Shown here: one piece after another, positions 21,423 to 27,333 of the stretch
Layout: the number at the start of each line of letters is the position of its first letter
How positions within the stretch are numbered: position 1 is the first letter of the stretch
Assembly (NCBI GenBank): GCA_024636705.1
Contig: JAGXGN010000083.1
Location: forward strand, 1 to 41,226
Reading direction: 5' to 3'
DNA: 41,226 nucleotides
Source: Halomonas sp.
GTDB lineage: Bacteria > Pseudomonadota > Gammaproteobacteria > Pseudomonadales > Halomonadaceae
The notes under the pieces: model-generated
The model's input: the letters and a program-made list of their open reading frames with translations, nothing else
Databases searched by the model: none
Told to the model about the DNA's origin: nothing
Program-made: the position numbers and the translations under genes

Positions 21423-21940
21423 GTCGCCGTCTCACCCTTGCTGTCCATGCGGTCGTTCCGGATCGACGCCTCGGTCGGTGACAGCGCTGCCAGTCTCGCC
21501 AGAACGCACTCCCCCCGGTCACTGAAGGCCTCCAGATCCGCCCGTCGACCCATGTCGGCAAGGCTCAGGGTCACCACCAGATCAGGGGTGGGTAACCAGC
21601 CCTCGCCGCGCTCGGGCCACTCGATGAGGCAGAGGGCATCTGCCGTCATCAGGTCGCGGCCGCCGATGAACTCCAACTCCTCCGGATCACCCAGGCGATA
21701 GAGGTCGAAATGGTGAACCCGGACGCCGCCGAGCTCATAGGGTTCGACCAGAGTATAGGTCGGACTCTTGACCGCCCCCCGGTGACCATGGGCACGCAGG
21801 ATGCCACGCGCCAGGGTCGTCTTGCCGGCACCCAGTTCGCCCTGGAGATGCACGCACCCATGACCCTGCAAGGCACGGCCCAGGCACTCACCGAAGGCGA
21901 CCTGGCGGTCTTCGTCATCGAGTTGCCGTTGCATCGCCAT
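21419..21940 (-). CDS. tsaE: tRNA threonylcarbamoyladenosine biosynthesis ATPase TsaE
   Basis: TsaE (173 residues) is the ATPase that works with TsaB and TsaD to make t6A37 in ANN-decoding tRNAs, an essential step in most bacteria. The P-loop GELGAGKTTLARGIL (about 36-50), YTLVEPYELGGVRVHHFDLYR and the late IEWPERGEGWLP are family signatures. It starts inside the end of nnr (26 bp overlap) and ends 4 bp inside amiB, so its expression depends on the same transcript as nnr. A second ATG two codons in is an equally good start. Confidence 0.96.
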   Translation of the reverse strand: MAMQRQLDDEDRQVAFGECLGRALQGHGCVHLQGELGAGKTTLARGILRAHGHRGAVKSPTYTLVEPYELGGVRVHHFDLYRLGDPEELEFIGGRDLMTADALCLIEWPERGEGWLPTPDLVVTLSLADMGRRADLEAFSDRGECVLARLAALSPTEASIRNDRMDSKGETAT

Positions 21941-23483
21941 CGACCGTCCCGGGATTGATCAATAATTGTGCATAGGATGCCAGATCCGTTGCCAGCAAAC
22001 CACGTTCCCCACTGTCATCGGCCGCCATGTCGGCCGCCAGGGCATGCACCACCACCCCCAGGCGAGCGGCCGCTTCCAGGGGCAAGCCCTGGGCCAGCAG
22101 GGCGCCCAGGATGCCGGAGAGCGAATCCCCCATGCCGCCGCTGGCCATGCCCGGATTGCCGAAGGGACAGACCGCCAGACCCCGGGGGCCGGCGACCAGA
22201 GTGCCTGCCCCCTTGAGGACCACCACACCACCCAGACGCCGCTGGAGCTCCCTGGCAGCAGAGGGACGGTCGGCCTCCACCTCGGCGACATTTATACCCA
22301 GCAGGCGTGACGCCTCGCCGGGATGCGGCGTCAGGATCCAGCCGTCGCGGCGCGCATCATCCCGATACTCCCCCGTGAACCGCGACGCCAGCAGGTTGAG
22401 GGCATCGGCATCCACCACCAGGGGCTTGCCGGCACCGAGCGCCACCTGGAGCATCGACTGCCCCGAGCTCCCCTGCCCCAGTCCCGGCCCCACCACCAGC
22501 ACATCGGCCTGTTCGGGCAGGACGCCCAGGTCACTCCCGCCACGGACGCCGTGCACCATGACTTCCGGGCGGCGCACCAGACTCGCCGTGACATGCTCCG
22601 GTGCCGTGGCCAGGCTCACCTTGCCGGCACCGAGACGGGCACAGGCCTCGGCTGCGATCAGGGCGGCCCCGCCGAACCCCGGTGCCCCGCCCAGTATCAG
22701 GGCATGGCCGAAGTCTCCCTTGTGAGCACCGCGCCGCCGCGGCGGCATCCAGGCGCTGACCAGGCCCGCCTCGAGCAGATGGGCGGCGGGAACCAGGTCC
22801 GTCTGGGCCTCGGCATCGACACCCAGCGGACGAAAGTCCAGGTCTCCCAGATGTGACGGTGCCGCACCCGTGTGCAACCCCAGTTTGTCGCCGATGAAGG
22901 TCACGGTCAGGCTGGCACGGACGGCCGACCCCAGCTCGGCACCGGTATCGGCATGCAGTCCGGAGGGGATATCGATGGCCAGCACCGGCTTGCCGCAGCG
23001 ATTGATGGCGGTAATGGCATCCAGGGCGCCCCCCAGGACATCGCCACTGAGACCGGTACCCAGGAGGGCATCGACCAGCACCTGCCCCTGGAAGGCCATG
23101 CCCGACTGCCAGGGCTCGGCTCCGACATCGGCCGCCGTGGCCATGTCTGCCGCCAGCCGGGCATCGTCGGATAGCGACTCGATCGACTTGAGCAGGATTC
23201 GCTGTACCCTGAGCCCCTCGTTGGCGGCCAGTGCCGCTAGTACATGGCCATCGCCGCCGTTGTTACCGCCGCCGCACAGCACCGTAATCGACTGGACCCC
23301 GGGCCAGCGACGCTTGAGACTCTGCCATGCCGCCGCGGCGGCGTGCTGCATCAGGGCGAATCCGCCGATGCCCGACTCGATGGTCCGTCGGTCGAGCTCA
23401 CGCACCTGGTCGGCGACATAGAGCGGGCGACCCTGGGGCTGTCGATTCGGCCCTTCATGAGGTTCGAGCGGCGCTACGGGCAT
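21915..23483 (-). CDS. nnr: Bifunctional NAD(P)H-hydrate epimerase / ADP-dependent dehydratase
   Basis: Nnr (522 residues, YjeF-type fusion) repairs hydrated NAD(P)H: the N-terminal epimerase half (about 15-230) converts R to S NAD(P)HX, and the C-terminal ribokinase-like half dehydrates S-NAD(P)HX with ADP. Signals are LCGGGNNGGDGHVLA and IDIPSGLHADTG in the first half, and VVLKGAGTLVAG and ASGGMGDSLSGILGAL in the second. I chose the ATG at 23483, with GGGAGA seven bases upstream; a TTG six codons earlier lies within the IS element. Just 5' of the ribosome binding site the sequence changes to the IS1182-like insertion, so the native promoter has been separated from this gene. Confidence 0.96.
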   Translation of the reverse strand: MPVAPLEPHEGPNRQPQGRPLYVADQVRELDRRTIESGIGGFALMQHAAAAAWQSLKRRWPGVQSITVLCGGGNNGGDGHVLAALAANEGLRVQRILLKSIESLSDDARLAADMATAADVGAEPWQSGMAFQGQVLVDALLGTGLSGDVLGGALDAITAINRCGKPVLAIDIPSGLHADTGAELGSAVRASLTVTFIGDKLGLHTGAAPSHLGDLDFRPLGVDAEAQTDLVPAAHLLEAGLVSAWMPPRRRGAHKGDFGHALILGGAPGFGGAALIAAEACARLGAGKVSLATAPEHVTASLVRRPEVMVHGVRGGSDLGVLPEQADVLVVGPGLGQGSSGQSMLQVALGAGKPLVVDADALNLLASRFTGEYRDDARRDGWILTPHPGEASRLLGINVAEVEADRPSAARELQRRLGGVVVLKGAGTLVAGPRGLAVCPFGNPGMASGGMGDSLSGILGALLAQGLPLEAAARLGVVVHALAADMAADDSGERGLLATDLASYAQLLINPGTVDGDATATR

Positions 23484-23498
23484 TCGGTGTCTCCCTAG

Positions 23499-24801
23499 CA
23501 ATCTGTCGGATTAAGGGGTGTGAATCGCAGAAGCAACGTCCCCTCGCTGGTTTCTTCGCAGGGTAAGCGACCCTGCGGTTGGAGAGGCGCTTTCGTCCTC
23601 TACGGCCTCGCCTTGAGCCGCCGCCGGGCGTAATAAAAAGGTGAGAGGCGCTCTTCACCCTGCCTTCAGGCGGTGCATCCGTTTGATGTTCCAGGCCATG
23701 GTCGTCAATCGCCATTCACCACTGACCTTGTCGAGGCCGCGCATCGAGACCTGTCGAAACCCCATCACGTGCTTGATGATCCCGAAGACCGGTTCCACCG
23801 TATGCTTGCGCAGCGCATATTGCGCTCGTCCGGCTTGGGTCTTCAGGCGGCGTGCCATCTGCTCGACATGGTCTGCAACGTCCAGCGCCGGGGGATCAGC
23901 AGCGAAGCGCTCGAAGACGGGCAAATGGTGCACGTCGCGCTTCATGGCCAGCAGCGTTTCGATGTCATGCGCCTGGCAGGCCTCGACATTGGCGGCACTG
24001 AAGTAGCCGGTGTCGGCCAACAGGTAGGTCGGTCGCCCCAGTGCCTCGAGATAGCCTTGCCAAGCCGCCAGCAGCGGCATTACCTGCTGTTTGTCGTTGG
24101 TGGCCTGGGTGACATGCACGTGGGTCACCAACATGGTGTCGGTATCGACGGCGGCCTGAGCGTTGTAGCACTGGTCGAAGCCCTTGCCGGTGACCGGCAT
24201 GATGCGCGACTCCGGATCAGTGAGATTGACTTGGTCCTTGTCGCGCGGGCCTCTGGGATCGCGTCCTCGCGGCTTTTTGCCCGCTTTCCGCTGTGCCTCG
24301 CGTCGCGTCACCTTCTCCTGATAGGCCGCTTGCTCGACGGCATCCCGCTCCTGGGCCCGCGCTTCAATCCTGGCCTTGGCCTCGGCGATCGCGGTCAGGC
24401 GCTGGTCGCCCCGGGCAATCTCCGCCGGGATGTCCATGCCATCGGCGGTTTCGTCCTGATCGGCCGATTCGACACGCTGAGTCAGCGCCTTCACCTCGGC
24501 CTTGTGCTGGGCTTCCAGCTTCTTGGCATGGCTATACGACAACGCCTTGTGCTTGCTGGCATTGGCCTTGAGCTTGGTACCATCCAGGGCGATGGTGCCG
24601 AGCTTGAGCAGCTTCATCTCGCGGGCCAGCAACAGCACCTGAACGAACAGCTGCTCCAGTTCGGGCAGCCACTCGTCCACGGAAGGCGGCAGCAGATAGT
24701 CGGTCTGGCGGTCAACGGGGATGAAGCGGCTCATGGCGTCGTTCCGGTGATGGCGGCATGATGAGAATATCTCACGACGTTATCGAAAACCCGACAGCCT
24801 G
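23499..24801 (-). mobile_element. IS1182-family element, internally deleted
   Basis: The ends are a 14-bp imperfect inverted repeat: 23499-23512 (caatctgtcggatt) and 24788-24801 (reverse complement CAGGCTGTCGGGTT), 11 of 14 matching. Both are flanked by CTAG (23495-23498 and 24802-24805), which could be a 4-bp target duplication or part of the ends. The 1303-bp body holds one transposase frame and 142 bp of noncoding DNA at the left end, with an 8-bp perfect hairpin at 23557-23577. The element lies between nnr and the TnpB element. The transposase lacks its N-terminal domain, so it probably cannot move by itself. End positions are inferred from the repeats. Confidence 0.75.
23655..24734 (-). 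pseudogene. IS1182-type DDE transposase with internal in-frame deletion
   Basis: The frame (359 residues) begins like a full IS1182 transposase (MSRFIPVDRQTDYLLPPSVD) but at residues 23-25 (LPE) jumps straight to the part that normally follows the N-terminal DUF772-like domain (LEQLFVQVLLLAREM). In intact relatives, as I recall them, a segment starting DHLARF and ending KRFLPE lies between, so about 80-90 residues are missing, most simply by recombination between two LPE-coding sites. The catalytic triad appears kept: Asp51 (ALDGTK), Asp241 (LLADTGYF) and Glu314 (HTVEPVFG). The insertion domain with a long charged helix (about 70-155) is present. Loss of the DNA-binding N-terminus should make it inactive, though the frame is open. 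Confidence 0.8.
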
Positions 24802-24829
24802 CTAGGACGGCTTGCTTTACCATCCAGTC

Positions 24830-24960
24830 TGACACTCCCCGCCCTGTCGGGCGAGGGTTCTTGGGTCGCCCCGAGAACCTTCCTGCTTCGATACGCCTTC
24901 ACTAGACCACGGCTAGGCCGCCGTCCCCGCTCCAGTCGCTCCACAGGCTAACCCCGCCAG
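24830..24960 (-). ncRNA. Candidate omega-RNA (reRNA) of the TnpB element
   Basis: By analogy with characterised TnpB systems the guide RNA overlaps the 3' end of tnpB and runs to the element end. Two hairpins fit that scaffold: 24856-24879 (GGTTCT/AGAACC with an inner GGG/CCC stem) and 24841-24852 with flanking pairs. The guide would be the DNA just outside the end, minus strand from 24829 towards 24810 (beginning GACTGGATGGTAAAGC). The 5' limit is a guess. Confidence 0.45.
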
Positions 24961-26037
24961 CCCGGCGGTTCGGATATTCCTGGCGGCATTGATGTCGCGG
25001 TCGATGGCATGGCCGCAGCCGTCACAGTGCCAGTGGCGCTGTGAGAGAGGCAGCTTATCGACCCGATGGCTGCAGTGATGGCAGGTCTTGCTACTCGGCA
25101 GCCACTGGCTCACTTTGACCAGTTGTCGACCTGCCCAGTCGGCCTTGTACTCAAGCTGGCGCACAAACTCACCCCAGCCTGCATCACTGATGGCCTTGGC
25201 CAGATGCCGGTTCTTCACCATGCCGGTGATGTTGAGCGACTCGACGCAGAGGACTTGGTTTTCGTTGACGAGCGTGCGGGTCGCTTTGTGAATCGCATCG
25301 CGGCGGCAGTCCGCGATCTTGGCATGCAGGCGCGCCACTTGCTGTGTGGCCTTAGCGCGGTTTTTCGAGCCTTTCTGCTTCTTGGCCAGCCGACGCTGAC
25401 GATACACTAGCCTGGCTTCATAACGCTTGAGGTGGCGCGGATTGCCCGACTTTTCGCCGCGGCTAGTGATAAACAGATCGGTCAAACCCAGGTCAATGCC
25501 AACGGTTTTCGGTGAGACCGATAGCGCCTCGGGCGAGAACTCACACAAGCAGCTGATAAAGTAGCGGCCAGCGCGATCTCGTGAAAGCGTGATGCTGGAA
25601 GGCGCACAGGGAAGTGGGCGACTCCAGCGAATCGGTAGGAGTTCGCTGGATTTGGCAATGGTGATCTCGCCATGCCGATAGCGAAAAGCCGCCTTGGTCA
25701 GCCGAATGGACTGCCGGCGGTCCTTGCGCTTGAAGCGCGGATAGCGTGCCTTGAGCTTGGGGTTTAAAAAATTGTCTAAGGCAGCCTTCTGATCCCGAAG
25801 CGTCTGCTGCAGGATGACGCTGGAAACGTCCTTTAGCCATGGATACTCGGCCTTTAATGCCACCAGCCGCCTTTCCGCTGCTGAATGCGATACCGACTCC
25901 TCGCGCTGTTGATATACCTCAGTGCGATAGGCCAGCGTATTGTTCCAGACGAAACGGGCAGAGCCGAACGACTTCGCCAGCAGTACGGCCTGCTCAGGCG
26001 TGGGATAAAGGCGTTCTTTGTAGGCCCGTTTCGTCAT
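24913..26037 (-). CDS. tnpB: TnpB RNA-guided nuclease (IS605 OrfB family)
   Basis: The protein (374 residues) is the size of compact TnpB proteins. Such proteins are RuvC nucleases guided by an element-encoded RNA and are ancestors of Cas12. The N-terminal helix-turn-helix/WED region starts RAYKERLYPTPEQAVLLAKS. RuvC residues are visible: Asp182 in VGIDLGLTDL, Glu266 in LCVESLNITGM, and an Asp in AIDRDINAARNI (about 348). The zinc-ribbon cysteines are at 319, 322, 338 and 341 (CHHC and CDGC). The frame is unbroken with all catalytic residues, so the nuclease should be functional. The ATG lies 22 bp after the AT-rich left-end segment. No ribosome binding site is obvious. Confidence 0.93.
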   Translation of the reverse strand: MTKRAYKERLYPTPEQAVLLAKSFGSARFVWNNTLAYRTEVYQQREESVSHSAAERRLVALKAEYPWLKDVSSVILQQTLRDQKAALDNFLNPKLKARYPRFKRKDRRQSIRLTKAAFRYRHGEITIAKSSELLPIRWSRPLPCAPSSITLSRDRAGRYFISCLCEFSPEALSVSPKTVGIDLGLTDLFITSRGEKSGNPRHLKRYEARLVYRQRRLAKKQKGSKNRAKATQQVARLHAKIADCRRDAIHKATRTLVNENQVLCVESLNITGMVKNRHLAKAISDAGWGEFVRQLEYKADWAGRQLVKVSQWLPSSKTCHHCSHRVDKLPLSQRHWHCDGCGHAIDRDINAARNIRTAGLAGLACGATGAGTAA

Positions 26038-26226
26038 GCTGTATAAATATCAGGGTTTAGTGACAACATCAACACAGACAGGCACCGCTGAACGGTGCGC
26101 GCTTATATCACCACCCGAGTAGGCGATGCTTTACGCGCTGTTTGGTAAAATCTTCACGCCTCGCGCCAAGCCCCTGAGCATCGAAATAGGCGTCGAGGCC
26201 TCGACTTGCGTGGTTTTTACTCGATC

Positions 26227-27333
26227 ATGAGTGTTTCAACATCGCCCGATGACGACTCCCTCCCGTACCAGGCCCTGGCCCGGCGTATCAAGGCCTGGGG
26301 TCGGGAGCTGGGCTTCCAGGAGGTCGGCATCACCGATACCGACCTCGCCGGGGACGAGCAGCGACTGCAGCGATGGCTCCAGGCCGGGCATCATGGCGAG
26401 ATGGGCTTCATGGCCAAGCATGGCACCAAGCGGACACGCCCGGCCGAGCTGATACCCGGCACCCTGCGGGTGATCAGCGTGCGCCTGGACTATCTGCCTG
26501 CCGAGGTCGAGACCACCAAGGTTCTGGGCCAGCCCGAAAGGGCCTATGTATCGCGCTACGCCACCGGCCGTGATTACCACAAGCTGATGCGCAAGCGACT
26601 CGCCACCCTGGCCAGCCAGATCGAGGCCGAGGTGGGGCCCTTCGGCTATCGTGCCTTCGTCGACTCCGCCCCGGTAATGGAGCGAGCCCTGGCACGCAAG
26701 GCCGGACTGGGCTGGTTCGGCAAGAATGCCATGTTGCTCAACCCCAGGGCCGGTTCGCTGTTCTTCCTCGGTGAACTCTACACCGACTTGCCCCTGCCGA
26801 TCGACGCGCCCTTCGAGGGGGAGCACTGCGGGAACTGCAGTGCCTGTCGGACCGCCTGTCCCACCGGGGCCATCGTCGAGGACCGGGTGGTCGATTCGCG
26901 CGCCTGCATCTCCTATCTGACCATCGAGCTGTTCGGGTCAATTCCCGAACGCTTTCGGGAAGCCATGGGCAACCGGGTCTTCGGCTGCGACGATTGCCAA
27001 CTGGTCTGCCCCTTCACCCGTTTCACCCGTGTCAGCCAGGAAAGGGACTTCTCGCCCCGTCACGACCTGGACCGGGCCAGCCTGGTCTCGCTGTTCGCCT
27101 GGGGCGAGGAGGAGTTCCTGGACAAGACCGCCGGCAGTCCCCTTCGACGCATCGGCTACGAACGCTGGTTGCGCAACCTGGCCGTGGGCCTGGGCAATGC
27201 CCCCTGGAGCGAGGCCGTGGAGGCCGCCCTGATGGCGCGCCTGCCCTACCCCTCCGATCTCGTCCGTGAGCATGTGCGCTGGGCGCTGGCGCGACAGCGG
27301 GATAAGCGCGAAGCCCTTATCGCCAGAGACTAG
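26227..27333 (+). CDS. queG: Epoxyqueuosine reductase
   Basis: QueG (368 residues) reduces epoxyqueuosine to queuosine at tRNA position 34 with cobalamin and two 4Fe-4S clusters. Cluster cysteines are at 201, 204, 207 and 211 (CGNCSACRTACPTG) and 254, 257 and 261 (CDDCQLVCP). The catalytic Asp lies in AFVDSAPVMERALA (Asp146), and the C-terminus is a HEAT-like helical repeat. The start is uncertain: ATG at 26227 matches the family, but a TTG at 26206 has GAGG seven bases upstream and would add seven residues. Its usual divergent neighbour nnr is now 2.7 kb away because of two mobile elements. A TAAAAT at 26146-26151 may be its -10 box. It needs B12, and cobO lies 16 kb away. Confidence 0.95.
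   Translation: MSVSTSPDDDSLPYQALARRIKAWGRELGFQEVGITDTDLAGDEQRLQRWLQAGHHGEMGFMAKHGTKRTRPAELIPGTLRVISVRLDYLPAEVETTKVLGQPERAYVSRYATGRDYHKLMRKRLATLASQIEAEVGPFGYRAFVDSAPVMERALARKAGLGWFGKNAMLLNPRAGSLFFLGELYTDLPLPIDAPFEGEHCGNCSACRTACPTGAIVEDRVVDSRACISYLTIELFGSIPERFREAMGNRVFGCDDCQLVCPFTRFTRVSQERDFSPRHDLDRASLVSLFAWGEEEFLDKTAGSPLRRIGYERWLRNLAVGLGNAPWSEAVEAALMARLPYPSDLVREHVRWALARQRDKREALIARD

Follow-up and report, generated by a model that had tools for sequence, protein, structure and literature searches.

Two mobile elements between queG and nnr in a Halomonas genome part the nnr operon from its native promoter

Between the divergent genes queG and nnr of a Halomonas genome, we found two mobile elements that separate the nnr operon from its native promoter: a tnpB-only element of the IS200/IS605 type that splits the -10 hexamer, and an IS1182-family element located further downstream, within the nnr 5' leader. 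From analysis of a 41,226-nucleotide stretch of DNA (the window), we consider it probable that two independent insertions took place at this locus and that the operon would now be expressed through read-through from the elements and through internal promoters. In the window, nnr is the first gene of the order nnr-tsaE-amiB-mutL-miaA-hfq, with ATG 23483-23481 (minus strand) as its start codon. The tRNA-modification gene tsaE is essential as a rule. The biology involved is that of known mobile elements, and insertions upstream of operons are otherwise common; the present case is unusually clean. It is a natural example, exact to the base, of two mobile elements that dismantle a housekeeping promoter above an operon that is itself intact, tsaE included, and the locus allows testing of whether mobile-element transcription can substitute for a native promoter and of whether a TnpB guide directed against a conserved promoter holds the locus in its disrupted form. 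The features of the region are listed in Table 1; an Rfam search of the window matched no family.

Table 1. Features of the queG-nnr region, in positions of the window
Feature	Position	Strand	Basis or remark
nnr (NAD(P)H-hydrate epimerase/dehydratase)	21915..23483	-	intact 522-aa frame; family matches; start conserved in relatives
nnr Shine-Dalgarno GGGAGA	23490..23495	-	sequence; GGAGACACC conserved in relatives
CTAG target duplication, nnr side	23495..23498		sequence and related copies
IS1182-family deletion derivative, 1303 bp	23499..24801	-	terminal repeats and flanking CTAG; longer copies compared
Transposase, 359 aa	23655..24734	-	264-bp in-frame deletion; DDE-domain match kept, DUF772 lost; relative has 451 aa
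CTAG target duplication, tnpB side	24802..24805		sequence and related copies
Stranded native leader	24806..24828	-	ACT (24828-24826, second half of -10), then GG and ATGGTAAAGCA (24823-24813); also guide flank of tnpB element
tnpB-only IS200/IS605-type element, 1316 bp	24829..26144	-	3' of TTAC (26148-26145); ends from related copies
TnpB, 374 aa	24913..26037	-	RuvC and zinc-ribbon motifs
Native nnr promoter, first part	26145..26169	-	TTGGCG (-35), 16-nt spacer, TAC (first half of -10); relatives compared
queG	26227..27333	+	intact, divergent from nnr

The native promoter and the empty site

In close relatives, the order upstream of nnr is TTGGCG-N16-TACACT, then ATGRTAAAGCA, then the Shine-Dalgarno sequence. 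In the window, the tnpB element interrupts the -10 hexamer as TAC|ACT, and the only native DNA between position 24805 and this element is the stranded leader. When the flanks are joined with a single CTAG, they read TTGGCG-N16-TACACT-N2-ATGGTAAAGCA-N10-GGGA, and the spacings of 16, 2 and 10 are identical to those in H. korlensis, H. heilongjiangensis, H. jincaotanensis and H. ventosae, which indicates base-exact insertion of both elements. The promoter reconstructed in this way has a sigma-70-like score of 7.9, as in most close relatives. This and the other promoter scores come from a rough scan with standard E. coli consensus weights, with chance levels taken from shuffled sequence.

The queG and nnr genes are divergent and separated by a short gap in 29 relative loci and in 78 of the 80 loci of a second set, in which the gap is estimated at no more than about 330 bp. 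No insert of comparable size was present between the two genes in these 107 relative loci (29 and 78, from overlapping sets). The initial annotation had named ancestral, non-mobile DNA at 23499-24801 as the outcome that would count against it, and that possibility is rejected by the relative loci, which lack such an insert; the comparison of the nnr-queG region that it proposed shows a normally short, divergent region into which the insertion sequence (IS) has been inserted. Its claim that the IS cuts the operon from its native promoter holds insofar as the operon is cut off. The IS does not account for this alone, however, because the native promoter is split by the separate tnpB element, which that account omitted (24829-26144) along with the internal deletion in the transposase gene. 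Either element singly would be enough to part the promoter from nnr, and no second intact nnr promoter was found in this genome (180 contigs, approximately 80% complete).

In many relatives (loci L092-L163), the ATGRTAAAGCA motif (24813-24823, minus strand, in the window) precedes the nnr Shine-Dalgarno sequence by 9-11 nt, and its distance to the -10 hexamer ranges from 2 to 52 nt. Its combination with the Shine-Dalgarno sequence is almost exclusive to nnr in the genomes searched; in the window, the IS1182-family element sits between the two. We also considered the motif as an alternative nnr start, which was rejected because its frame relative to nnr, judged by eye, is not constant among relatives.

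Anatomy of the two elements

The IS1182-family element ends in the imperfect repeats CAATCTGTCGGATT and CAGGCTGTCGGGTT, which are identical at 11 of 14 positions. Eleven longer related copies in three other genomes (G003, G006 and G010) have similar ends and CTAG on both sides, which indicates that the ends and the CTAG target of the window copy are not due to chance. CTAG is also under-represented in the 41-kb window, with 24 occurrences compared to approximately 41 expected from trinucleotide counts. The ends, the CTAG and the 11 related copies thus confirm the earlier proposal of an IS at 23499-24801 with a CTAG duplication against the nnr Shine-Dalgarno sequence. The GGGAGA does abut the CTAG as described, but its placement at 23489-23494 was off by one: it occupies 23495-23490 on the minus strand, so that the two sequences overlap by one base, the initial G of GGGAGA being the final base of CTAG.

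The transposase of this element, which is present as one copy in the genome, has IS1182 as its best model but scores 249 bits where the cut-off is 270, with matches from profile position 117 on, a shortfall that we attribute to an internal deletion. The closest full-length relative transposase, in G010, comprises 451 aa, scores 386 bits to the same model and carries DUF772 at residues 52-121. The two proteins agree through WLP and resume agreement at ELEQLF; the intervening gap corresponds to 264 bp, or 88 codons, and is flanked by two copies of the 8-bp repeat CTGCCCGA. Because the comparison with G010 places the missing 264 bp between these repeats, we conclude that the window element is an in-frame deletion derivative, which is probably unable to move by itself. 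The same deletion was not found in any other genome with related elements among the 250 family genomes searched, and the related copies that span the deletion site are interrupted there by extra sequence. Some IS1182 members use palindromic targets (PMC5678879). An inverted-repeat replacement of the IS1272 type (PMC5678879) was weighed against target duplication and is not favoured, because the length of the leader, with one CTAG counted, matches that of relatives.

The TnpB protein scores 348 bits to the guided-TnpB model (cut-off 100) and also aligns to TnpB structures; all three acidic RuvC motifs were located and the zinc ribbon is kept. The left end of the element adjoins TTAC, a motif that IS608 also uses as its target (PMC8612924), in eight of eight copies, and the right end is GTGTCAG. 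There is no target duplication, and the joined flanks correspond to relatives without a duplicated base. The element is present as a single copy in this genome and contains no tnpA. The sole match to the Y1-transposase family (PF01797) in the genome (G000:C146:8176-8460, locus L192) lies in a 306-aa frame, which is long for TnpA, and is perhaps a REP-associated tyrosine transposase instead. The two element types also meet in a second genome (G060, contig C1, approximately 2422434-2423856, locus L174), where they are arranged differently: a related tnpB element there carries, inside its right end, a related IS1182 element at a CTAG.

Taken together, these sequence comparisons show the following steps. 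The tnpB-only element inserted 3' of TTAC in the nnr promoter and thereby split the -10 hexamer, and the IS1182-family element inserted at a CTAG of the leader, which duplicated this sequence while sparing the Shine-Dalgarno sequence and the start codon. Either here or at its source, the IS1182 copy underwent a deletion of 264 bp between the 8-bp repeats of its transposase gene. One could instead suppose that the arrangement is an assembly artefact, since the genome is fragmented and incomplete and mis-joins are often caused by mobile elements. However, both insertions are base-exact: one has a 4-bp duplication, the other a TTAC target, and the promoter spacing is restored when the flanks are joined. 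Each element is also single-copy in this genome; we regard an artefact as extremely improbable.

Expression of the nnr operon

With the native promoter split and the second element placed against the ribosome-binding site, the nnr operon needs expression from elsewhere. Genes tnpB, tnp and nnr share one orientation, and a search of the nnr strand from 26300 to 23400 revealed no intrinsic terminator, which is why we favour read-through: transcription from the co-oriented tnpB/omega-RNA and tnp would continue into nnr and would be joined by promoters within the operon, which together form the likeliest route of expression. Co-orientation of both elements with nnr has a chance expectation of one in four. 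Read-through could be blocked by Rho-dependent termination or by processing of the omega-RNA. That the cluster has internal promoters is illustrated by Salmonella, where hfq is transcribed mainly from a promoter within miaA (PMC1810395).

The initial annotation had suggested that an outward promoter in the 142-bp noncoding left end of the IS was recruited. Outward and hybrid promoters are recorded for other insertion sequences, and the left (3') end of the IS1182-family element is suitably placed for one, or for a hybrid promoter at the junction with nnr, at approximately 15-170 bp upstream of the gene. The best sigma-70-like site in this end, however, scores 4.08, which is at chance (mean 4.27; equalled by 53% of shuffles) and compares with 7.9 for the native promoter, and the end is not conserved in the G003 and G006 copies. 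We did not retain this proposal, and a drive of nnr from either kind of promoter seems distinctly improbable. ISCR1 is an example of an element with such promoters (PMC6218425), and a literature search on outward promoters of IS1182 elements gave one weak match. The 5' end of the IS reaches 5.58, matched by 29% of shuffles, and the maximum for the whole region is 6.81, at the tnpB left end, reached by 60% of shuffles; neither has statistical support. Structured RNA was likewise not indicated in the left end of the IS (z-score -0.93), where an 8-bp hairpin lacks a T run. The top promoter-like site on the nnr strand, TTGTCA-N15-TATACA (26040-26066, minus strand), is the one that scores 6.81 and lies just upstream of tnpB; it is a possible tnpB promoter, although its score is within chance for the region.

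Another explanation is that nnr is poorly expressed, that tsaE and the later genes use promoters inside nnr and further down, and that the insertions are nearly neutral. Judging by E. coli, nnr is presumably dispensable, which is a point for this explanation, as is the existence of promoters within the cluster in enterobacteria (PMC1810395). It depends on putative promoters inside nnr, however, and nnr retains both an intact 522-aa frame and its Shine-Dalgarno sequence. We judge near-neutral insertions to be unlikely and prefer read-through combined with internal promoters.

Predicted TnpB guide and comparison with known systems

The guide of ISDra2 corresponds to the approximately 16 nt of flanking sequence beyond the right end, and TnpB cuts targets that adjoin the transposon-associated motif (PMC8612924). 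The corresponding flank of the window element is ACTGGATGGTAAAGCA and its motif is TTAC, which when joined constitute the intact nnr promoter, and hence the predicted guide should address that promoter; provided that the nuclease is active, a restored promoter would be cut. Sequence conservation is higher over the last 130 bp of the element (approximately 89%) than over most of its body (approximately 79%), as would be expected if this part encodes a guide-RNA scaffold. No intact target (TTAC-ACTGGATGGTAAAGCA) is left in this genome, at approximately 80% completeness, and H. korlensis and H. jincaotanensis each carry the site with one mismatch in 16. As a tentative and rather unlikely extension, the element may lock in the loss of the promoter: the guide would direct cutting of a restored or incoming native allele, and the cell would rely on mobile-element transcription for the tsaE operon.

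Both elements resemble known systems. The IS1182-family element shares its best-matching transposase family, terminal repeats and flanking CTAG with IS1182-family insertion sequences (ISAzo1-like, and the Halomonas copies in G003, G006 and G010) but differs from full-length copies in the absence of 264 bp of the transposase gene and of DUF772. Similarly, the tnpB element matches tnpB-only IS200/IS605 elements with an IS608-like target in its TnpB family, left TTAC, conserved right end and lack of duplication, whereas it stands out from its IS200/IS605 kin by the lack of tnpA within it and by its location inside a housekeeping promoter. The TldR proteins, which are nuclease-dead TnpB-like repressors aimed at promoters, likewise have a guide that addresses a bacterial promoter, a likeness that is predicted for the window element. 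Assignment of the window protein to TldR was rejected, as it shows no loss of RuvC catalytic residues and the three acidic motifs are present; unlike TldR, it keeps its RuvC motifs, and its guide would be merely the flank of a mobile element (PMC13418256).
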